Virus record (IMG/VR): IMGVR_UViG_3300049457_000020
Span: 1 to 47,301 of that record
Reading direction: 5' to 3' (one strand)
Origin: a virus
Length of the DNA stretch: 47,301 bases
The notes below the pieces were generated by a model. It was given only the letters and a program-made list of their open reading frames with translations. It did not search any database and was not told the DNA's origin. Each line of letters starts with the position of its first letter. Position 1 is the first letter of the stretch. Both the position numbers and the translations under genes were made by a program. Below are positions 15,311-36,635 of this stretch, one piece after another.

Positions 15311-16039
15311 TTACTCCTTCGTCGCTCCGATCGCGATCATTCGGTCCAGCAAGTCGAAAGCCGACTCCTGCAGCGCCGACACGGTCGGCGCGAGCGCTTT
15401 TTCGGCGGCGGCCCTGGCGGCGGCCCTGGCGGCGGCCCTGGCGGCGGCCCAGGCGGCGGCCCAGGCGGCGGCCCAGGCGGCGGCCCAGGCGGCGTCCCAG
15501 GCGGCCCAGGCGGCGGCCCAGGCGGCGGCCCTGGCGGCGGCCCTGGCGGCGTCCCAGGCGGCGTCCCAGGCGGCGGCCCAGGCGGCGGCCCTGGCGGCGG
15601 CCCAGGCGGCGGCCGCATGATCCCGCGCCTCGTTGATCGTGCCGATCGCGGCGTTGGCGAGGTCGGTCGAGGCGAGCTCCGGCAGCGCGCGGAGCTTGGC
15701 CGCGTCCTCGGTCAGGCCGGCCAGGTCGAGCCAGGCCGGCGCGAAGGTGCGCGCCAGCCAGTCGGTCGCGAGCCAGGCGCGCCGCTCCTCGTCGTCGGCG
15801 CCGGTCGCCGTGCCGATCATCCGCGGCACGTAGGGCTTGAGCCGCTGGCGCGTCGCGTCGTCGAGTGCGTCGTTCCAGGCCCGGCCGAAGGCGGCGATCG
15901 CCGGCGACACGCAGACCGGGTGATCGGTCCACTCCTCGCCGGCGACGAACGCGACCGCCTCGAGCAGGCACATCTTCCCGTCGGGCTCGTGGCTTCCCTC
16001 CTCGAGGTGGAGGGAGTCGAGGTCGAGCGCGCGGATCAC
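15311..16039 (-). CDS. Ala/Trp tetrad-repeat protein
   Basis: 242 residues from GTG 16037-16039, overlapping the Bet stop (GTGA). Residues 1-140 form a mixed domain ([34 protein letters not shown]-like [33 protein letters not shown]). Residues about 142-212 are a run of four-residue units AAAW or AAAR with occasional Asp, predicted as one long helix with Trp and Arg on a stripe. A normal charged helix closes the protein. It lies in the replication/recombination cluster beside Bet. Function unknown; such Ala/Trp repeats are known in actinobacterial phage proteins but not explained. Confidence 0.65.
15405..15615. repeat. 12-bp tandem repeat coding Ala/Trp units
   Basis: About 210 bases of near-perfect 12-base units of the form gcggcggccc(t/a)g, with some shortened or variant units (cgtcccag). 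On the minus strand each unit codes Ala-Trp-Ala-Ala or Ala-Arg-Ala-Ala. The extreme bias leaves several reading frames open on both strands. It is a likely site of length change by replication slippage. Confidence 0.8.
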
Positions 16040-16989
16040 TGGGCGACCACGGCCGCGGCCGGGTTGTGCGGCGAGCTCGCCCACATGGCCCGCTTCTCGG
16101 TCAGCCAGATCGTCCAGGCCGACTCTCCGGCGTCCTCCGCTGGCAGCGTCAGCCGCAGCTTCGGGTTCGTCGCCTTGACCTCGTCGACGAACGCGGCGCA
16201 GGCCAGCTTGGTCGCCTCGGTGACCGCCTGGTCGGGCGCGTGGAACGGGATGTCGTCAGGCTCGATCGGTGCGTCGCTCTCGGCGACGGCCGCCTCCATC
16301 TCCGCGATGACCGCCTGAGCCTTCGGGGAGCGTTCACCGGGCGCGAGCGCTGGCTGGTGCGTCGCCTCGTACTCCGCCGCGGCGCGGTCGTAGGCGTCGT
16401 CGCCCTCCTCATGGATCTCGCCGGTCTCGCGGTCGATGATCCGATCGCCATCGTCCAGTTCGGGCGGCCGCGGGCGCAGGCCACTCAACTCCATCGGAAA
16501 GGCCTTCCGGAAGGCGAGAGCCTCAGCGGCTTTCGCCAGCATGAGGTCAGGCATCTTGGTCCAGAAGGGCGAGGCCTGAACGTAGCTCTTGTAGCGGGCC
16601 ACGGCCCAGACGGGCTGCGCGAAGTCTGTTCGGATCACGCCGACGCGCGCGGCGGCAGGTGGCCCATCCTCGAGCCAGATGGCGCGCCACTGACCGGCCG
16701 AGTCACACCACTCAGGCCCTAGCTGGCCGCCGTACCTGCCGGTCCTTTCGGCCATGACGCGATGGCCATCGATGGAAATCTGCAGGGAGACCTGATCGCG
16801 GTACTTGATGAAGTAGATCTGGCGCGCTATTGGATCGAGGCCCGTCCGCTTGCAGACTGCGATGAAGAGAGAAAGCTCGTCGGTTGTAGCTCCGCGCGCG
16901 ATCGTCCGCTTGATGAGCTCGATCCGTTCGTCGGACCACTGATCGAGAGCGGAACCGTTGACCTCGATCCGGGCTAGGTCGGTCGTCAC
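16036..16989 (-). CDS. bet: Bet/RecT-family single-strand annealing protein
   Basis: 317 residues from GTG 16987-16989, overlapping the HNH stop (GTGA). The Red-beta/RecT core spans about 18-190: [57 protein letters not shown] with GQLGPEW, and the basic/aromatic block ending [14 protein letters not shown]. The last ~120 residues are acidic and loosely conserved. The protein anneals complementary single strands for phage recombination. The usual exonuclease partner is not evident next to it. Confidence 0.88.
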
Positions 16990-17600
16990 GATGCGATCTC
17001 CTTGCGCGGGTCGGCCTCGCGCCGTCGCCGCTGGTGCAGCGCCATGTGGTGCGAGGCGCACAGAAAGGCGATGTTGCTCGGGTCGTTGTTCAGCGGGTTC
17101 TCGTCGCGGTGGTGACGGTGGATGTTGCCCTTGCCCGGAATCGGGGCGACCCCGCACTGTTCGCAGGGCTGCCCGGCGAAGAGCTTTCGCGCCCGCTGGC
17201 GCCCGAGATCGTCGCTCGGCTCCGGGTTCCAGCGCGCGTTGTTCGGGCCGCGGTGACGTTCCGCGACGTGGGGCAGGTTGGCCGCCTCGCGCGTCGAGCG
17301 CGCGTCGATCCCCCACTTGCGCATCCAGTGCCAGATCGCGCCTTGCGTCACGCCGAAGCGTTCGGCGATCTCGCTCTGGGTTAGCCCCTGATCGTGCAAC
17401 TGCTGGAGCACGACCGGTGTGAGGCCGCGCGCCTTACGGACGCCGGGCCGCTGGCCGGCGTGCTTACCCGCGCCTAGATGGGCGCGGTAGCACGCCATCG
17501 AGCAGTAGCCGGTCTTGATGACCCCGCGCTCGAGCTGGTAGCGCTGCTGGGGGATCGGCGTGTACACCGCCCCGCACCAGCCGCAAGGGAACGTCGTCAA
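16986..17600 (-). CDS. HNH endonuclease with N-terminal Cys knuckle and HTH
   Basis: 204 residues starting at TTG 17598-17600, which overlaps the previous stop (TTGA); no other start precedes the conserved [14 protein letters not shown]. Order of parts: Cys knuckle (CGWC, later CSMAC), a helix-turn-helix ([20 protein letters not shown]), a Cys pair (CEQC), then the HNH block [20 protein letters not shown] with FLCASHH. Catalytic His-His and Asn are present. It sits directly upstream of bet and is probably a DNA-processing or mobile nuclease. Confidence 0.75.
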
Positions 17601-21466: not shown

Positions 21467-21615
21467 GCGCACCCGACGCCCTGGGGCTCGAGCAGCTCGC
21501 AGCCGACCTCGTCTTCGACATGCTCGAGCTGCGGCGCGAGTTTCACCGTTCCGCGCCTGACAACCGTACAACTGCACGGCTAGACGCAGCGCGGGAGCCG
21601 GCGCATGCCACGTAA
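21463..21615 (+). CDS. 50-residue helical protein
   Basis: ATG 21463-21465 overlaps the lipoprotein stop (ATGA), and its end overlaps the integrase start by 11 bases. One amphipathic helix (LEQLAADLVFDMLELRREFH) and a basic tail. Translation is probably coupled on both sides. Function unknown. Confidence 0.5.
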   Translation: MSAPDALGLEQLAADLVFDMLELRREFHRSAPDNRTTARLDAAREPAHAT

Positions 21616-22855
21616 GCCTCAGAGCGCCGGCCGGGGAGAAGGGTCCATCTTTCGGCGCGGCACCCGCTGGTACGCCGAGCTGGGGCTCGGCGTCGACCCG
21701 GCGACCGGCAAGCGCCGCGTCTGGCGCGCGACGGGCGCGCTCCGGCGCGAGGTCGCCGACGCGCTGGCCAAGGCCCGCCAGGAGAACGGCCGCGGTGCCC
21801 TGCGCCCGACCTCGACCGAGACGTTCAAGGAGTACTGGGAGGCCTGGATCGCCACGAAGGAGCTCGGCGTCCGCCCCGCGACCTACGCGAACTACGTCCT
21901 CAACGGCAAGCGCCTGGTCCCGCTGATCGGCCAGGCTCGCCTCAGCGCGCTCGACGAGGCCGCGATCGAGGCCGCCTACGCGCGGCTCCTCGCGCGCGGC
22001 TTGAAGGGCAAGGCACTGTCGCGGCGCTCGGTCGAGCAGGCGCACACCGTCTTGACCAACGCGCTGAAGGACGCGGTCGGCCGGCTGAAGATCCCGCGCA
22101 ACCCGTGCGACTTCGTGACCGTGCCGCGCCCGGCGGCCGGCGAGATGACGACGCTCGAGGAAGCCGAGGCCGAGCGCCTGTTCGGCGCGACCGCCGGCAC
22201 CCGCTGGCACGCGCTCTGGATCCTGTTCGTGACGACCGGCATGCGCGTCAGCGAGGCGACCGGGCTGCACTGGCGCGACGTCGACCTGGTGCGCCGCCGC
22301 GCCGTCATCAACCGCGGCCTGCAGCGCCAGGCGGGCAAGGGCATGGTCCTCGACGAGACCAAGCGGACCCGCTCGCGCCGCTCCGTGCCGCTGTCGCACC
22401 GCTGCGTCGCGGCCCTCGAGGCGCACCGCCGGGTCCAGGACGCCGAGCGCGCGGCGACGACCGACTGGGCGGACGAAGGGCTGATCTTCCCCAGCGCCCG
22501 CGGCACGAAGATCGATCCGGCCCGGGTCCGCGAGCAGCTCGCGCGCGACCTGACGGCGGCGCGTTGCCCCGACGTCCGCGTGCACGACCTCCGCCATACC
22601 TGCGCGACGCTCCTCCTGAAGCGCAACGTCCATCCGAAGATCGTCCAAGAGCTGCTCGGCCACGCCACGATCGCGATCACACTCGACCTGTATTCGCATG
22701 TAATGCCCGCTCTGTCGGGCGTCGTGGCGGATCATATGGACGAGCTGTTCCCGACTCCTGCAGGAGACGTTTCCGAGCGATCTCCTGCAGAAGCACACAC
22801 ACCGGTCGAGACGGCGATCGACGGCGGGGCTCCGGACCCACTACCTATCAGATAG
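21605..22855 (+). CDS. int: Tyrosine-family integrase
   Basis: 416 residues from ATG 21605-21607. An N-terminal arm-binding domain (GEGSIFRRGTRWYAELGLG) is followed by a SAM-like core-binding domain (about 70-175) and the catalytic domain. All expected residues are visible: Arg214 in TGMRVSEATG, Lys253 near ETKRTRSRRS, His327 and Arg330 in HDLRHTCATLLL, His353 in LLGHATI and nucleophile Tyr363 in LDLYSHV. It lies next to the attachment site, whose arm-like repeats reach into its own 3' end. Confidence 0.92.
   Translation: MPRKPQSAGRGEGSIFRRGTRWYAELGLGVDPATGKRRVWRATGALRREVADALAKARQENGRGALRPTSTETFKEYWEAWIATKELGVRPATYANYVLNGKRLVPLIGQARLSALDEAAIEAAYARLLARGLKGKALSRRSVEQAHTVLTNALKDAVGRLKIPRNPCDFVTVPRPAAGEMTTLEEAEAERLFGATAGTRWHALWILFVTTGMRVSEATGLHWRDVDLVRRRAVINRGLQRQAGKGMVLDETKRTRSRRSVPLSHRCVAALEAHRRVQDAERAATTDWADEGLIFPSARGTKIDPARVREQLARDLTAARCPDVRVHDLRHTCATLLLKRNVHPKIVQELLGHATIAITLDLYSHVMPALSGVVADHMDELFPTPAGDVSERSPAEAHTPVETAIDGGAPDPLPIR
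22756..22794. repeat. Candidate integrase arm sites, left
   Basis: TCCTGCAG occurs at 22756-22763 and 22783-22790, 27 bases apart, inside the 3' end of int. The second copy extends to TCCTGCAGAAGC (22783-22794), which recurs exactly at 23052-23063 on the far side of the tRNA-like core. The flanking layout fits arm-type sites of a tyrosine-integrase attP. Confidence 0.45.
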
Positions 22856-22870
22856 CGTCCGTTCAAACTG

Positions 22871-22940
22871 TGGCGGGAGCGTATGGGAGTCGAACCCACC
22901 CACCGACGGATCACGCCGGCGCAACGGTTTTGAAGACCGG
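22871..22940 (-). other. attP: attP core: 3' half of a selenocysteine tRNA gene
   Basis: On the minus strand this reads as the anticodon arm (CCGGT, loop CTTCAAA with anticodon TCA, ACCGT), long variable arm, T arm (GTGGG, TTCGACT, CCCAT, with the G-U closing pair seen in tRNA-Sec), acceptor strand ACGCTCCC, discriminator G and CCA. The 5' half (D arm and 5' acceptor strand at the right distance) is absent, and the last anticodon-stem pair is already mismatched, so this is not a working tRNA. A 3' tRNA half next to int is the usual identity segment. The host target is thus probably selC. Confidence 0.75.
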
Positions 22941-23051
22941 ATTTCGGGCGCGGCTGGCCGTCAGCAGGGCGCGGCGGACGGCTCCCTTAGTTCGGACGGA
23001 GCGGTCGCCGGCGTCCGGTCGCAGCCTGCCGACGAGACCCGCGACGGCAAG

Positions 23052-23063
23052 TCCTGCAGAAGC
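23052..23063. repeat. Candidate integrase arm site, right
   Basis: TCCTGCAGAAGC, identical over 12 bases to the copy at 22783-22794. Together they bracket the tRNA-like core at distances of roughly 80 and 110 bases. Confidence 0.4.
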
Positions 23064-23072
23064 CCGTCGGTC

Positions 23073-23097
23073 ATTGCGCTGGGAATCCCAGCGCAAT
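23073..23097. terminator. 25-bp palindrome at the end of the late operon
   Basis: ATTGCGCTGGG and CCCAGCGCAAT pair over 11 bases around AAT. It lies 30 bases past the last late gene, so it is well placed to end minus-strand transcription, but no U-run follows on either strand. It could instead bind a protein at attP. A smaller inverted repeat (CTGGA..TCCAG) adjoins it. The stretch 22941-23051 between core and arm repeat holds nothing else I recognise. Confidence 0.4.
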
Positions 23098-23126
23098 AAA
23101 TGCCTGGATTATTCCAGTCTGGTCGC

Positions 23127-23300
23127 TCACCCCTTGATCGGGCTGCCGAACACCGCCCAGCCCAGCACGAAGAGCAGCACCCACATGCCCACCCCGCCGC
23201 CGAAGCTGGCGCGGTAGGCCGGGTCGCGGGGCCACCCGATCCAGGTCCAGCCGACCACCCACAGCAGCATCAGGATCCAGAACAGCAAGGCAATCGTCAC
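23127..23300 (-). CDS. Small two-helix membrane protein, holin candidate
   Basis: 57 residues from GTG 23298-23300 with GGAGG about 6 bases upstream. Two hydrophobic helices (about 2-23, IALLFWILMLLWVVGW; about 36-53, GMWVLLFVLGWAVFG) are joined by a short charged loop, and the end is basic (PIKG). Size and topology fit a class II holin. Last gene of the late operon, three genes after the endolysin. Confidence 0.55.
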   Translation of the reverse strand: MTIALLFWILMLLWVVGWTWIGWPRDPAYRASFGGGVGMWVLLFVLGWAVFGSPIKG

Positions 23301-23392
23301 ATCAACCTCCAAACAACCGAGTAGCCGACGCCGTTCCAGACGCGGCAGGCGACCCAGCGCAGCACGCGCGGCGGGGTGGTCGATTCGATCAC
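23297..23392 (-). CDS. Possible 31-residue ORF in the lysis cluster
   Basis: GTG 23390-23392 follows AGGCCGAGAA. The stop overlaps the GTG of the holin candidate (GTGA). The frame begins VIESTTPPRVLRWVACRVW, has a hydrophobic, basic character, and could be a peripheral membrane peptide. Support is the coupling and the otherwise unexplained 100-base gap. Confidence 0.35.
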   Translation of the reverse strand: MIESTTPPRVLRWVACRVWNGVGYSVVWRLM

Positions 23393-23403
23393 TTCTCGGC
23401 CTT

Positions 23404-23598
23404 CTAGCTCGTCTGCTTCGGGGGTAGCTTCCGAGTCGCGAACTCGAGCTTGCTCCCACTGGTGAAGGCCGCCTCGTGCAGGGTATGGCCCGCGTCGAGC
23501 AGGCGGTCGACCGCCTCGCCGGCGACGACCTCGGCGTCGGTGGGCTTGCCGTTATGGTGGGGGCCGGTGCCCCGGATCGTGATCGCCCAATCGCCCAT
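23404..23598 (-). CDS. Small protein after the endolysin
   Basis: 64 residues from ATG 23596-23598, overlapping the endolysin stop (TAATG). The opening MGDWAITIRGTGPHHNGKPT is of a type seen in short phage proteins (ITIRGTGPHHN), followed by one helix (DAEVVAGEAVDRLLDAGH) and a basic end. Function unknown. Confidence 0.6.
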   Translation of the reverse strand: MGDWAITIRGTGPHHNGKPTDAEVVAGEAVDRLLDAGHTLHEAAFTSGSKLEFATRKLPPKQTS

Positions 23599-25214
23599 TA
23601 CGCGACCTCCAAAGCTTTCTTGACCACGTTGATGGCCTCCTGCGCCGACCGCCGGCGCTCCTCGCTCTGCGGCGTCGTCTGTAAGGTCAGGTTCCACAAG
23701 TTGTTGAGTGCGTCGACCCTCGGATCCACGGGCGCCCCGGGCGCGGCCGCGGGCGGGTCGTCCGGGCGCGGCGGACGACCCAGCGCGCGCAGCTCGTCGA
23801 GCGTGCCTTCGAACACGTTCGTGTCGCAGGGCCCCGCGATCCCGGGCACGCCGCCGCGCCACACGCCGTTCTGCCAGATCGCGATCCTCGGCCAGGCCGG
23901 CGGCGTCGGCGGGCGGCGCGGCTGGTAGCTGGCCAGCCAGAGGAAGCGGAAGCGCCGGCGCATCTCTTCGACGTGCAGGTTGTGCTCGTCCATGTAGTAG
24001 TCGCCGGTGTAGAGGCCGGCCTGGAAGCCGAAGATGCGCTCGAACAGGTCTCCCCACTCGGCGCACCAGACGGAGAGGTCGACACCGACCGGCACGTCGG
24101 GGTCCTCCATGTCCAGCGCCGCCAGGTCGTACGGCAGGAATCCGCCGGCCGCCTCGAGCGCCAGCCCGAAGGTCTCGATCGACGCGCCGGGCGCGACCAG
24201 GCTCGGCTTGGCGTAGTGGTAGCCGCCGCGCGCGCGGCCGATCCGCCGGGTCTCCCGCCAGTTGAACGGGAAGTCCTCGTCGATGTAGCGGTGGCGCGAC
24301 GTCTCGTCCCCGCTCGCCTTGCTGATCACCGCCGCGATCGGGCCGGCCTCCTGGTCGTCCTCGAGCACACCAGCGGCGAGCTGATCGAAGTCGATGTAGC
24401 CCTGGTTGTTGCTGACGTCGACGAGCCGCAGCACGGGTCTCACCTCCGGAGTGGGGTCGCGCCAGGCGCGCAGGGCCGCGTCGATCCGGGTCCCGCGCGC
24501 GATCGGGGGCGTGGCCTGCCCCACGGATCCGTCGTCTTGCGTCCAGCCGTCGTAGACGAAGTAGAGGAACGCCTCGGCGCCGAGGCGCTGGCACTCGGTC
24601 AGGACGGGCATCAGCACGCTGGCCGCCCAAATGTCCCGGTCGCAGACGCGGCCTGTCCCGACGCCGTGGTTGACCTCGCCGATGATCCAGGCGACCGCGT
24701 CGCCGGCGGCCTCGACGAAGGCGCGCGGAACCGCCATCAGTTCGTCGACTGTCAGACCGTAGGCGTGCAGGACCGCGCCGTCGGCGTCCTCGACGCCCGC
24801 GTACCAGTCGAGCCAGCCGGGGAAGGACGGACTCATCCCGGCCCACCAGCACTCAATCGAGTCATCCAGACTCGTGACCTTGGCCGACCAGCGCCGGAAC
24901 CACGCGCGGTAGTCGGCCGCGGTCCCGCCCCAGCCCTCGAATGCGTTGTTCGGTTCGTTCCCGCCAATCAGCGCGACCCGCTGACCCGGCCGACGATGAG
25001 CGGTCGCGAACACAACCCCCGCCTCGGCGTACCGCTCCGGGTCGGGCCGACCCTTGTTCTCGTAGACGCGCAGCCAGACAGCGTCGGCACCGAAGGCGAC
25101 CTCGGCGGACGGCTCGTCGAGTGAGCCGGCGGCGGCGGTCTTGTCGCGCGGGACGGCGACCTTGCGGCCGTTCTCGACGACCGACACGTCGAAGTAGCCC
25201 GTCAAGAGCGTCAC
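23598..25214 (-). CDS. Two-domain endolysin: clan GH-A-like + GH25 muramidase
   Basis: 538 residues from GTG 25212-25214 (GTGA overlap). Residues 1 to about 255 resemble a TIM-barrel glycosidase of clan GH-A: an Asn-Glu-Pro motif (LIGGNEPNN, Glu about 87) and a second Glu at a strand end (WIIGEVNHG, about 180). Residues about 262-475 are a GH25 lysozyme: LVDVSNNQGYIDF, GGYHYAKPS, AALDMEDPD with acidic residues, LYTGDYY, FLWLASY and IWQNGV. Linker and helical tail follow. GH25 cuts MurNAc-GlcNAc bonds. The N-terminal substrate is unknown. A virion-associated role is possible, but the holin-like neighbours favour lysis. Confidence 0.75.
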   Translation of the reverse strand: MTLLTGYFDVSVVENGRKVAVPRDKTAAAGSLDEPSAEVAFGADAVWLRVYENKGRPDPERYAEAGVVFATAHRRPGQRVALIGGNEPNNAFEGWGGTAADYRAWFRRWSAKVTSLDDSIECWWAGMSPSFPGWLDWYAGVEDADGAVLHAYGLTVDELMAVPRAFVEAAGDAVAWIIGEVNHGVGTGRVCDRDIWAASVLMPVLTECQRLGAEAFLYFVYDGWTQDDGSVGQATPPIARGTRIDAALRAWRDPTPEVRPVLRLVDVSNNQGYIDFDQLAAGVLEDDQEAGPIAAVISKASGDETSRHRYIDEDFPFNWRETRRIGRARGGYHYAKPSLVAPGASIETFGLALEAAGGFLPYDLAALDMEDPDVPVGVDLSVWCAEWGDLFERIFGFQAGLYTGDYYMDEHNLHVEEMRRRFRFLWLASYQPRRPPTPPAWPRIAIWQNGVWRGGVPGIAGPCDTNVFEGTLDELRALGRPPRPDDPPAAAPGAPVDPRVDALNNLWNLTLQTTPQSEERRRSAQEAINVVKKALEVA

Positions 25215-25405
25215 CGAGGCGCTCCCTCGGTCAACCCGTCCGCTGACGCCAGCAGCCGCTGCCGCAGCCTCGACTGGCGCAGCCTGACGATGTCCTCGCT
25301 GGGAGGACGCAGCACGCTCGGATAGGCCCGGTTCGCCCCGCGCGCGAGCAAGTAGATCTGGACGCGCGAGAGGCTGTCGGTGCTTTGCTCGTGCCGCTCG
25401 GTCAT
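25211..25405 (-). CDS. Small basic protein in the lysis cluster
   Basis: 64 residues from ATG 25403-25405 (a GTG three bases earlier is an alternative), overlapping the membrane-protein stop. Helical and basic (IVRLRQSRLRQRLLAS), no membrane segment. Coupled to the endolysin by GTGA. Function unknown. Confidence 0.5.
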   Translation of the reverse strand: MTERHEQSTDSLSRVQIYLLARGANRAYPSVLRPPSEDIVRLRQSRLRQRLLASADGLTEGAPR

Positions 25406-25926
25406 CACGGCGACCTCGGGGGATCCGTCGTGCTCGGCGGTGGCGTGGTCGGTAGACCATTCGGCTTGTCGTCGGCCCGGCGACCCCCCGACGACTTGAC
25501 GGGCGGAATGGTCACCACCGGGGTCGGGACGACGACGACGGCCGGGACCGTGGACGCGGCGGCGGCAGTCTCTTTGAGGATCTCGACCTGCCCCTCGGCG
25601 TGGCCCGCGCGCTCAAGAGCGTTCGTGAGGTCACCCATCCGGCCGTTGATCTCGCCCGCCAGGATCTCGTGCTTCTCGGTGAGCTTGACCGTCTCGGCGG
25701 TGTTGGCGGCGACCCCAGCGGTTAGCGCGTTGGTCTTCACATTGACTGCATCGACCTTTAGACCCATCTCGCGGACCTTGAGGTAGATCCCCGCCAGCGT
25801 CCCGATCAGACCGATCAGGGCGAACACCAGCGGGTAGGTCTTGTCCGCGAGCGCCAGCCAAAAAGCCTGGTCGCTCGAGTAGACCGGATCAGCATCGAGC
25901 AAGAGCATGAGGACGAACACGATCAC
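25405..25926 (-). CDS. Membrane protein with coiled coil, holin or spanin-like candidate
   Basis: 173 residues from GTG 25924-25926. A hydrophobic N-terminus (MIVFVLMLLL), a membrane helix at about 31-50 (TYPLVFALIGLIGTLAGIYL), then a long coiled coil (about 51-125), then a Pro/Thr-rich disordered tail. One or two membrane spans plus a coiled coil before the endolysin fits a holin of the phage-holin/LydA-like kind or a factor linking membrane and wall. Which of these cannot be decided. Confidence 0.55.
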   Translation of the reverse strand: MIVFVLMLLLDADPVYSSDQAFWLALADKTYPLVFALIGLIGTLAGIYLKVREMGLKVDAVNVKTNALTAGVAANTAETVKLTEKHEILAGEINGRMGDLTNALERAGHAEGQVEILKETAAAASTVPAVVVVPTPVVTIPPVKSSGGRRADDKPNGLPTTPPPSTTDPPRSP

Positions 25927-32307: not shown

Positions 32308-32847
32308 CTAGCCGCCCCCCCGCGTGCGCAACACGAACCCGAGATCGGCGCAGGGGCCGGTTCGCTCGACGACCTCGACCGCCCACCAGCGCGAGCCGCC
32401 CGGGTAGTAGTCGGCGAAGTAGAGACGCCCGTGACGGAAGAAGGGCCGCTCCGGGTCGAAGAAGTCGAACGTCTCCTCATGGAAGGCGCGCCGGTGCGTC
32501 GGGTCGCGCCAGAGGTTCGGGCCGTTCCAGGCCGGCGCGCGCAGGACCAGTCGGCCGCCGGGCGCGAGCAGGCGCCAGCACTCGCCGAGCCAGTCCGCCA
32601 CGTCGAGGCGCAGGTGCTCGACCACGTCCAGCGCGACCACCTTCGCGAACGCGCCGTCTGGCCATGGCCAGGGGAGCACGTCCAGGTCGTGGGCGACATC
32701 GACGTGAGCGGCGTGCGCGGTTCGGTCGTGGTTGAGCGCACCGGCCAGGGGGCGGAACCCGCAGCCGAGGCACAGGGTTGCCGGCAGCGTCGAACGCGGC
32801 GGCCCGGTGAGTTGCGCCAGCGCCGCGCGCGCGATGGCCGTGCTCAC
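32308..32847 (-). CDS. SAM-dependent methyltransferase (type 11-like)
   Basis: 179 residues from GTG 32845-32847, overlapping the glycosyltransferase stop (GTGA). Motif I is LCLGCGFRPLAGALNHD; then HVDVAHDLDVLPWPWPDGAF and KVVALDVVEHL, with LAPGGRLVLRAP as the post-I strand. This matches class I methyltransferases that act on sugars, proteins or small molecules. Its tight coupling to a glycosyltransferase inside the head-tail block suggests it modifies a glycan on the virion. Confidence 0.8.
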   Translation of the reverse strand: MSTAIARAALAQLTGPPRSTLPATLCLGCGFRPLAGALNHDRTAHAAHVDVAHDLDVLPWPWPDGAFAKVVALDVVEHLRLDVADWLGECWRLLAPGGRLVLRAPAWNGPNLWRDPTHRRAFHEETFDFFDPERPFFRHGRLYFADYYPGGSRWWAVEVVERTGPCADLGFVLRTRGGG

Positions 32848-34016
32848 GCCGACACCGCCTCGGCGACCGACCGGGGCCCGTCGGCGACACGGTCGGCGAG
32901 CTGGGCCAGGAGCGGTGCCCACTGCTCGCGGGCGACCCAATCGACCCCGTAGGCCATCATCGCCGCCGTCCCCATGGCGAGGGCGGCGGCGCCCAGGCCA
33001 GCGTAGGCGTGCTCCAGCGCCTCGACGATCGCGCCGACCCGCGGCACGCGGACGATCCCGCGCAGCTCGTCGGCCCGCGGCTCGGTCTCGCTGGCCGGCA
33101 CCCTCCAGCCGGCCGCGACCAGCTCCCCCATCGCGGTCCAGTCGCCGGCGATCACGGGGACCCCGCATGCCTGCGCCTCGATCAGCGGCACCCCGAAGCC
33201 CTCCCATGAGGAGACCCCGAGCAGCACGTTCAGGCTCGCGTACAGGTCGGCCATCTGCTCGTCCGGGTAGCCGACGAGCTTGAGGTACTGGTCGGCGACG
33301 AGCACGTCCCGACCGATCTCGAGCCCGAGCGCGTCCATGAGCGCCACGAGGTCCAGACCGCGGCCGTCCTGTCCCAGGTTGGTGTGCAGATAGAGGAGCG
33401 CGTCGGGGTGGCGGGCGCGGAAGGCGGCGAAGGCGGCCAGCTGCGGGCCGAACGCCTTGCGGTCCCGCGGGTCCTTGTTGTCGGCGACCATGCCGACCAC
33501 GAACCGATCCGCCGGGATGCCGGTCCGTTCGCGCGCGCCGGGTCGGTCGCGCCAGCGGTAGATCTCGGCGTCGACGGCGAGCGGGATGTAGCGGGCCTCG
33601 ATCCCGGCGTCGGCGGCCACGCGCTGGCCGAAGCGGGAGAAGACGACCGGCTGGTAGGCGCACGCCAACCGCTCGCGGAGCGGCTCGGGCAGGGGGTCGG
33701 CGTCGACCGGGATCCAGGGCACCCACCGCACGCCACGCAGGAGCGCCGGTTCGCAGATCCACGCGTCGCAGAGCGTCAGGACCAGGTCGGCGCCGAAGTG
33801 GCGCGCGTGGGCGGCGAGGACGTCCTGGCTGTAGGGGTGGTGGCCGCGCGGGTAAAGCTGGCAGCCGCACCAGCGCAGGAGCGCGCCCTCGAGGCCGAAC
33901 TTGGTGGCGACCGCGAGCTCATGCCCGTGCACCCCCATGCGCGGCACGAACAGGCGCGTCTGCACGCCGTAGCCGGTCGCGGTCCACGGCGAGTCACTGA
34001 ACCAAAGAATCTTCAC
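32844..34016 (-). CDS. GT4-family glycosyltransferase
   Basis: 390 residues from GTG 34014-34016. GT-B fold: N-terminal KILWFSDSPWTATGYGVQTR, acceptor-side ADLVLTLCDAWICEP, and a C-terminal donor-binding half with VVGMVADNKDPRDRKAF and the E-x7-E-type SSWEGFGVPLIEAQACG. Transfers a sugar from a nucleotide donor, with retention in this family. Phage GT4 enzymes of this kind are known beside structural genes. Probable target: a capsid, tail or newly made glycan. Overlaps the methyltransferase. Confidence 0.85.
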   Translation of the reverse strand: MKILWFSDSPWTATGYGVQTRLFVPRMGVHGHELAVATKFGLEGALLRWCGCQLYPRGHHPYSQDVLAAHARHFGADLVLTLCDAWICEPALLRGVRWVPWIPVDADPLPEPLRERLACAYQPVVFSRFGQRVAADAGIEARYIPLAVDAEIYRWRDRPGARERTGIPADRFVVGMVADNKDPRDRKAFGPQLAAFAAFRARHPDALLYLHTNLGQDGRGLDLVALMDALGLEIGRDVLVADQYLKLVGYPDEQMADLYASLNVLLGVSSWEGFGVPLIEAQACGVPVIAGDWTAMGELVAAGWRVPASETEPRADELRGIVRVPRVGAIVEALEHAYAGLGAAALAMGTAAMMAYGVDWVAREQWAPLLAQLADRVADGPRSVAEAVSA

Positions 34017-34023
34017 GATCGCC

Positions 34024-34389
34024 TCAGTCCTGGCGCACGCAGTCGGCGCGGACGTGGACCAGCAGGCTCGTCGGCGCCTGCACCCCGAGCACCTCGTACG
34101 TCCGGGTGCCGACGACGAGGCGGTCCTGCGCGCGCACGTCCGCGTCGTGGGGGAGGTAGACGTAGAAGCCGACCCGCCCCTGCAGCTGGTCGGCGACGAC
34201 GCCCTCGGCCGCTTGCGTCCGCATCGCGGTGACGTAGCACGACACCGCCGCGACCGTTGCCCAGGCGTCGGTGACCCCACCCTGCCCATCCGCGGTCGGC
34301 GTCGCGCGGCTGATGCGCGCGGTCTCGGAGCGGACCGAGTCGGCGACCGTTCGGAGGCCGGACAGCAGCGCGTCGGGGATGAGAGTCAT
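34024..34389 (-). CDS. Head closure / stopper-like protein
   Basis: 121 residues from ATG 34387-34389 (ATGA overlap). AWATVAAVSCYVTAMRTQAA, DQLQGRVGFYVYLPHDADV and DRLVVGTRTYEVLGVQAP are the pattern of short barrel-like head completion proteins of the SPP1 gp16 type. It follows the connector gene. Confidence 0.7.
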   Translation of the reverse strand: MTLIPDALLSGLRTVADSVRSETARISRATPTADGQGGVTDAWATVAAVSCYVTAMRTQAAEGVVADQLQGRVGFYVYLPHDADVRAQDRLVVGTRTYEVLGVQAPTSLLVHVRADCVRQD

Positions 34390-34981: not shown

Positions 34982-35332
34982 CTAGCCGCCTTCCCAGCCG
35001 TCGGGCGGCGGGTGCCCCTCGCGCAAAAACCACGCGCTGCCGCGGTGCACCCAGCAGCCGCCGCACGCGTCGCAGTGCCAGGCGCCATCCTTGAGACCAC
35101 CGTCGGGGTGCTTGACCATCTCGGCGCCGCAGTGCGGGCACGGGTGCTCGACCGCATCGTCCTCGACGGGCACGGCGGAGACCTCGATGACCACGGCCTC
35201 GGTGGCCGACAAGATCACGGGCTCGTCGCTCTCACCCACGAGGATGGGCGTCGACTCGGCGGGCGCCGTGGGCTCGGGATCGGGCGCGAGCGAGGGCTGA
35301 TACCGCGACGTGGGCTTGTAGTCCCTAGGCAT
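34982..35332 (-). CDS. Zinc-ribbon protein in head module
   Basis: 116 residues from ATG 35330-35332, overlapping the methyl/glycosyltransferase stop by 8 bases. The first 60 residues are Pro/Glu-rich and disordered. A ribbon follows (CPHCGAEM, then CDACGGCW) with GAWHCDACG. Between glycan enzyme and connector genes; function unknown. Confidence 0.65.
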   Translation of the reverse strand: MPRDYKPTSRYQPSLAPDPEPTAPAESTPILVGESDEPVILSATEAVVIEVSAVPVEDDAVEHPCPHCGAEMVKHPDGGLKDGAWHCDACGGCWVHRGSAWFLREGHPPPDGWEGG

Positions 35333-36635
35333 CGGTCCGACCCCCTAACGCCGCGTTGACGGCGTGCATGTTCAGGACGTTGATTCCCACCCGCGAGAGG
35401 TGATCGAGCCGCACACTCGGATCAAGCCACACCGTGAAGCCGAGGGCGCGGGCGCGCTCGCAGAAGGCCCAGTCCTCGCTGAGGTAGTTCCACCCGCCCG
35501 CGAAGACGTCCTCCATCGGGTACGGCTGGAACATCGGCCAGAACGCCCATGGTTGGTTTGCGTGGCACAGCGGAAGCGTCTGCACCAGCTCAGCGACGAC
35601 CCGGCGATGCACGGCCAGGAAGCCGGTCGCGGCGTGGCGCACCTCGACGGGCGGGACGTCGGGCCCGAACGTGATGTCGCCGTGCAGGCCGCGCAGGGCC
35701 AGGTGCCCGCCGTCGCGGACCGGGTAGGCGGCCGACACGACGTCGAACCCCTCCCGGCAGCGCGCCACGATGCGCTCGGCGGCCTCGGGCTCGAACGCGA
35801 TGTCGTCGTCGACCATCAGGAAAACGTCGTCGTTGGTGGTCCGGTACCACGTCGAGACCGCGATGGCGCGGCTCCGGTCGATGAGCGCGTCACCGGCCTT
35901 GGTCGTGATGCGCCAGCCACGGGTCTGGAGCGCCATCAGGGACGACATCGTCGGGAGCGAGCAGTCGCGGTAGGCGCAGAGGAGTAGGCTGGCCCGCTGC
36001 GCCCCGACCAGCGCGAGCCGCTGCCAGACCCGCACGCCGTCGCGGCTGTCGAGCAGCTCGAAACCCAGCCCCTCCAGCGTCGGCCCCGGGAGCCAGCCGT
36101 GGTTTTCTTTCAGGATGAGCGGCGTCCAGACGTCGTGACTCGGGCACGTCTCGATGAGCACGACGCCGAGGCGCATCCTGCTCGCCCAGGAGGTCAGCCA
36201 CGCGCGAGCATCCGGCACGAGCGGCAGCACGTCGATGCAGAGGACCAGATCGGCCGCTTCAACCGGTGCCGGGGCGATGCCTGTCCAATACGTCGACCCG
36301 GGCAGCGCATGCACGTGAACATCGACGCCATCGGTCTGCTCGATGCCCGCAGCCCGGAGGGCGCGCAGGTCATGCCCCATCCCGCACCCAACATCGAGCA
36401 CCCGCTTGGCGTCGATGTTCCGCGCGACTCCGACCAGGAGGTCGGTCAGGGCGCGGCGCTCATCGGTGCGGTGCCGGGCCTCGATCTCGACGCCGAGCTC
36501 ATGGCTATCCCGGTAGAAGGCGGCGATGTCCTCGGGTGTCGTGGGCGCGCGGGCGTCCCACTCGGCCGCGAGCGCCTCGCGCGCTTGCTCGAGCGTCGGG
36601 ACGAGCTGATCGAGGCCAATCATCGCCGTGGGCAT
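35325..36635 (-). CDS. Methyltransferase-glycosyltransferase fusion
   Basis: 436 residues from ATG 36633-36635. Residues 70-210 form a class I methyltransferase: RVLDVGCGMGHDLRALRAAG, then TDGVDVHVH and ADLVLCIDVLPLVPDA. Residues about 215-430 are a GT-A glycosyltransferase: SLLLCAYRDCSLPTMSSLMA, the metal-binding DDD (VFLMVDDDIAFEPEAA), VVSAAYPVRDGGHLALRG and the acidic SEDWAFCERARAL. Joining SAM and nucleotide-sugar activities in one chain suggests it builds a methylated sugar. It lies between capsid-associated and connector genes. Confidence 0.8.
   Translation of the reverse strand: MPTAMIGLDQLVPTLEQAREALAAEWDARAPTTPEDIAAFYRDSHELGVEIEARHRTDERRALTDLLVGVARNIDAKRVLDVGCGMGHDLRALRAAGIEQTDGVDVHVHALPGSTYWTGIAPAPVEAADLVLCIDVLPLVPDARAWLTSWASRMRLGVVLIETCPSHDVWTPLILKENHGWLPGPTLEGLGFELLDSRDGVRVWQRLALVGAQRASLLLCAYRDCSLPTMSSLMALQTRGWRITTKAGDALIDRSRAIAVSTWYRTTNDDVFLMVDDDIAFEPEAAERIVARCREGFDVVSAAYPVRDGGHLALRGLHGDITFGPDVPPVEVRHAATGFLAVHRRVVAELVQTLPLCHANQPWAFWPMFQPYPMEDVFAGGWNYLSEDWAFCERARALGFTVWLDPSVRLDHLSRVGINVLNMHAVNAALGGRTDA

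Follow-up and report, generated by a model that had tools for sequence, protein, structure and literature searches.

A selenocysteine tRNA 3′ half beside a tyrosine integrase gene points to selC as the integration site of a temperate tailed phage with a probable Chloroflexota host

Positions 22871 to 22939 (minus strand) of IMG/VR virus record IMGVR_UViG_3300049457_000020 are almost certainly the attP core of a temperate tailed phage, whose integrase would recombine this site with attB, the 3′ half of the tRNA-Sec gene selC, in a Chloroflexota host near genomes G001 and G002. The exchange would most likely fall in the anticodon loop, leaving an intact tRNA-Sec gene at attL and passing the host half to attR. 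The features by which a tRNA-gene attP is recognized were found together: a tyrosine integrase gene next to the core, a core that nearly matches one end of a chromosomal tRNA gene and extends to its 3′ terminus, and relatives of the integrase beside that same tRNA gene. The window (the whole stretch of DNA that was analyzed) is a 47,301-bp virus record without end repeats, in which the core is flanked on either side by phage genes.

Read on the minus strand from 22939 to 22871, the core is CGGTCTTCAAAACCGTTGCGCCGGCGTGATCCGTCGGTGGGTGGGTTCGACTCCCATACGCTCCCGCCA. Its 69 bases comprise, in order, an anticodon arm with TCA (in the loop CTTCAAA), a long variable arm (8-bp stem), a T arm whose stem contains a G-U pair, and a 3′ acceptor strand, ending in ACGCTCCC, G, and CCA; the 5′ half is absent. 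Position 22939 marks the 5′ CGGT of the anticodon stem, and 22871 is the A of the encoded GCCA. An initial annotation, made from the letters alone, had described the same anticodon, long variable arm, T-arm G-U pair, acceptor strand, G plus CCA, and missing 5′ half at 22871 to 22940, which is correct to one base. The Rfam tRNA-Sec family (RF01852) matches 22951 to 22875 (−) with 31 bits (E value, 2.9e-4; gathering score, 47); the alignment lacks the D arm and leaves the 5′ acceptor strand unpaired, which accounts for the shortfall and is expected for a 3′ half. ARAGORN called no tRNA gene anywhere in the window. When the 5′ strand of the hosts was added, RNAfold paired seven of eight acceptor positions, a refinement of the annotated eight-base acceptor strand, which is present in sequence. 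Rfam matches to radC, ncS01, and others near the core scored below gathering and were dismissed. Between the lysis genes and the core, a near-perfect inverted repeat (23074 to 23098; ATTGCGCTGGGA/TCCCAGCGCAAT) is a possible terminator or protein site.

A 63-nt segment of the core found no exact match in genome contigs (84,980 species genomes) or in viral contigs. A looser anticodon/T-arm pattern search returned 28 selC loci, in Chloroflexota, Planctomycetota, one member each of Gemmatimonadetes and Nitrospirae, and one unnamed bacterium. By far the closest was locus L023, in the metagenome-assembled genome “Chloroflexi bacterium isolate K_Offshore_80m_m1_189” (G001), with 94% identity over 68 nt and four differing core bases. 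Relatives were then searched with G001 as the center (151 genomes), and the 3′ half of selC in G002 was identical to the core at 68 of 69 bases (BLAST E value in that genome, 1.2e-28), a match far beyond chance. This selC is intact and is called as tRNA-Sec by ARAGORN. The sole difference is in the acceptor strand, T in the phage versus C in G002; G001 also has T. Identity between phage and G002 starts at the first base of the anticodon-stem CGGT, ends at the encoded CCA, and gives way to divergent bases upstream, as would be expected of an att identity block beginning at the anticodon arm. G002 contains a single match, with no displaced second copy of the 3′ half.

The integrase gene (21605 to 22855, plus strand; 416 amino acids [aa]) is convergent with the half-tRNA, with 15 bp between its stop codon and the CCA end of the core. 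Its assignment as a tyrosine integrase, proposed in the initial annotation, was borne out by Pfam (PF00589, 3.4e-25; PF14659, 1.9e-5) and PHROG 1 (3.4e-66). In G002, a convergent integrase remnant begins 143 bp past the selC CCA and is 64% identical to the phage protein over 110 aa. The top-scoring integrase among the 151 relatives of G001 is that of G093 (314 bits, 48 to 50% identical), which adjoins an intact selC in the convergent layout of the phage. A tree built from 17 integrases groups the phage with G002 (100/99), and both join G093 at 89/89, a grouping with moderate support. For the other integrases near these three, the adjoining gene is tRNA-Lys or tRNA-Arg, or no tRNA was called in the vicinity. 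In relatives, the integrase family also adjoins tRNA-Lys, -Arg, and -Ser, so that target switching is common, a point that weighs against selC as the target. With the near-identity to selC and the adjoining gene, these neighbors of selC uphold the reading of the segment as an attP core. Just downstream of selC in G001, the seeming end of an integrase-like frame can be made out by eye (LGHSSIVLTLSTYAHS).

Relatives of the integrase were absent from viral contigs and from 20 virus records with related terminases, many of them fragments; INPHARED phages and PLSDB plasmids yielded distant integrases only, all below 60% identity and about 29 to 34% among the matches listed. No prophage that is close in DNA and carries this integrase turned up at selC, which weighs against the reading, as does the lack of a displaced copy in G002; the search for prophages with this gene next to selC, which the annotation had proposed, gave as its nearest result the remnant in G002.

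By the general scheme of tDNA islands and their exchange (PMC4383910; PMC8371274), the tyrosine integrase would join attP to attB, the 3′ half of host selC. Since the shared identity sets in within the anticodon stem, we infer strand exchange in the anticodon loop; the probable crossover site (22925 to 22939, minus strand) is the 7-nt loop CTTCAAA between the two arms of the 4-bp inverted repeat CGGT/ACCG, the anticodon-stem repeats that would act as core-type integrase sites. The attL/attR repeat of an island at selC in another genome (G111, below) begins one base ahead of CTTCAAA. The host 5′ half and the phage 3′ half would thereby form a complete tRNA-Sec at attL, and the host’s own 3′ half would end up as attR, at the opposite end of the prophage. 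In folding predictions, this attL hybrid takes on the native tRNA-Sec secondary structure (−45.6 kcal/mol, versus −48.6 for G002 and −48.0 for G001) and, so modeled, encodes a complete tRNA.

Simple k-mer counts near the core gave no unusual repeats, and only one three-copy 12-mer pattern remained. Its CTCCTGCAGRAG-like copies comprise two on the integrase (P′) side, at 22755 to 22766 (CTCCTGCAGGAG, palindromic, within the 3′ end of the integrase gene) and, 27 bp from that site, at 22782 to 22793 (CTCCTGCAGAAG), and one on the opposite (P) side in the same orientation, at 23051 to 23062 (GTCCTGCAGAAG). The pattern matched at 15 of 2,336 control positions (0.6%), and as arm-type sites these three are only suggestive. 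In G002, G093, G111, G114, and G001, a tandem pair of 10- to 12-mers (mostly TGACAGCAA-like) lies at a distance of 81 to 180 nt from the anticodon loop. Such a position would fit arm sites there; in sequence, the pair is unlike the phage motif.

On the P side, the half-tRNA is followed by a short open reading frame (23127 to 23459, minus strand; 110 aa) without a Pfam match, whose hydrophobic C-terminal segments suggest a possible holin, then by a gene of endolysin type that carries a glycosyl hydrolase family 25 domain (23598 to 25460, minus strand; PF01183, 3.2e-16) and by the gene for a tail protein that has a minor-tail domain. The major head, portal, and terminase genes come after the tail. 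Within the structural region, two genes have matches to phage families of glycosyltransferase type (32844 to 34289 [−], phrog_2170, 1.5e-19; 35325 to 36635 [−], phrog_34859, only 6e-4), and a RecT-like single-strand annealing protein is encoded at 16036 to 17316 (−) (phrog_2780, 5.2e-57).

With the integrase gene on one side and lysis and tail genes on the other, the half-tRNA is best read as attP in nonintegrated DNA. The initial annotation had reached the same excised form from the missing 5′ half. Integrated elements carry the same 3′ half at attR, so that a lone half by itself is no proof of excision; the conclusion stands on the flanking phage genes. Were the half instead the attR of an integrated prophage, the host’s displaced half, one flank would be bacterial. 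The attR sites of G111 and G141, viewed alone, do likewise show a 3′ half without a 5′ half, but in integrated elements (G093, G111, and G002) the integrase gene sits beside the complete tRNA gene, whereas in the phage it sits beside the lone half, and lysis and tail genes continue past that half with no host genes recognized between, which makes an attR very improbable. A junction of two head-to-tail prophages would have the same local sequence as attP and need not be free phage DNA. Such an array needs two copies. The contig is single, its 47.3 kb amount to one phage length, the terminase gene lies near one end, and genes of early type lie toward the other; we regard the array as unlikely.

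A role other than integration, as a relic (a 5′-truncated tRNA-Sec pseudogene) or a regulatory RNA, could be entertained insofar as the element is not an intact tRNA gene and could be transcribed. The anticodon stem and the CCA are the exact limits of the identity, the element lies beside an integrase whose relatives adjoin selC, and no extra function is needed, so that this reading is hardly credible. The target is apparently a single tRNA-Sec gene, a situation that would also suit tRNA-dependent lysogeny, in which the host tRNA is lost through integration and one carried by the phage takes its place (PMC10865867). That system has a core of 8 to 10 bp and a complete phage tRNA; the core of 69 bp and the lack of a tRNA gene in the window contradict it, and we rejected it, its probability being practically negligible.

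The host phylum is probably Chloroflexota, near G001 and G002, judged from sequence relatedness, and the phylum label is that in the title of the L023 record. As the core has one mismatch to G002 and four to G001, neither is taken as the exact host species. The annotation had further predicted a host that makes selenoproteins; full-length SelA is encoded in both G001 and G002, which supports a selenocysteine-using host. Independently of the selC match, the phylum is supported by a prophage-like contig in a relative of G001 (G013:C654), whose terminase is 64% identical to that of the phage (DNA, 72% over about 1.1 kb) and whose integrase gene lies beside tRNA-Lys in the layout seen in the phage. 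A capsid protein search found no close prophage in the 151 relatives of G001. Short DNA matches in G002 and G023 lay outside CRISPR arrays (repeats checked) and were taken as chance. To our knowledge, Chloroflexota is a little-studied phylum with few known phages. The half-tRNA acts as a host barcode that places an otherwise hostless metagenomic phage with Chloroflexota hosts near G001 and G002, and it predicts lysogeny at one exact base range.

The prediction of selC as the target also agrees with the related integrases beside it in G002 (a remnant) and G093 and with intact attL/attR pairs at selC in other Chloroflexota that have other integrases. Beside a complete selC, G111 has an integrase 37% identical to that of the phage, and the 3′ half recurs as an exact 67-nt copy at a distance of 78.5 kb; in G141, which likewise has a complete selC, an exact 69-nt copy of the 3′ half lies 55.7 kb away, and the recombinase is more distant (26%). 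Such repeats match the attL/attR pairs that elements inserted in selC are predicted to have. The 78.5-kb element occupies G111:C1 3339975 to 3418617 (L056 and L057), with a further 36-nt partial copy about 1 kb beyond, and the 55.7-kb element at selC occupies G141:C4 3053 to 58902 (L058 and L059). The G111 integrase falls elsewhere in the 17-integrase tree, away from the phage, G002, and G093, and selC has therefore probably been reached more than once. G020 and G114 have further partial copies of the selC 3′ half within 2 to 6 kb, which look like repeated insertion and decay at selC. Several damaged copies lie within a few kilobases at L061 (G020:C34, 7347 to 13418) and L063 (G114:C199, 2892 to 5227). 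ARAGORN calls a second tRNA-Sec in G020, the 5′ half of which is probably a chance fit.

It seems reasonably likely that selC is a recurrent insertion hotspot across Chloroflexota, to which several integrase lineages (phage/G002/G093, G111, and G141) came independently, and that at least some of these recombine in the anticodon loop. The Sec-decoding gene would thus have been repeatedly rebuilt from mobile-element DNA, with an exchangeable 3′ half; a cue to exchangeability is the T in the phage acceptor strand where G002 has C.

The mechanism is classical, and nothing about it is mechanistically new: carrying the back half of the tRNA-Sec gene beside an integrase would allow insertion without breaking the host gene, a known trick. 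What is new is that the host is probably a member of Chloroflexota, that the sublocation at selC would be the anticodon loop, and that there are signs of repeated selC insertion in the phylum. Insertion at selC is known for islands and, in rare cases, for phages. As in the tDNA islands collected by Islander (PMC4383910), attP carries a tDNA 3′ fragment beside int, the gene would be restored, and the crossover would be of the anticodon-loop class; the mechanism is the same (PMC4383910 and Williams 2002 as cited there), and what stands out as unusual in this phage is the use of Sec as isoacceptor, along with its probable host phylum. The temperate Burkholderia phage PhiE067 likewise has an integrase adjoining selC and uses a 3′ part of the gene as att (PMC7266877, which also cites an earlier selC phage, Sun et al. 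1991). Its att is 19 bp and confined to the 3′ end of selC, whereas here 69 bp run from the anticodon stem to the CCA, which implies another sublocation; the probable host phylum also differs. tRNA-Sec, with its long variable arm, would thereby join the anticodon-loop targets of tyrosine integrases. Mycobacteriophages Boilgate and Omega also have a common core with a tRNA 3′ half, a tRNA rebuilt at attL, and reported arm-type sites flanking the core (PMC10865867); they target tRNA-Lys and tRNA-Leu in Mycobacterium, and their core of 43 to 44 bp is shorter than the 69 bp here, where the tRNA has a long variable arm. Closer at hand, the Chloroflexota prophage-like contigs G013:C654 and G007:C324 have 34 to 36% related integrases and the same int/tRNA layout, with tRNA-Lys as the target in place of tRNA-Sec. 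The corresponding loci are L158 and L160, respectively, and G007:C324 starts within the anticodon arm of a tRNA-Lys 3′ half, as if the assembly had broken at the att repeat.
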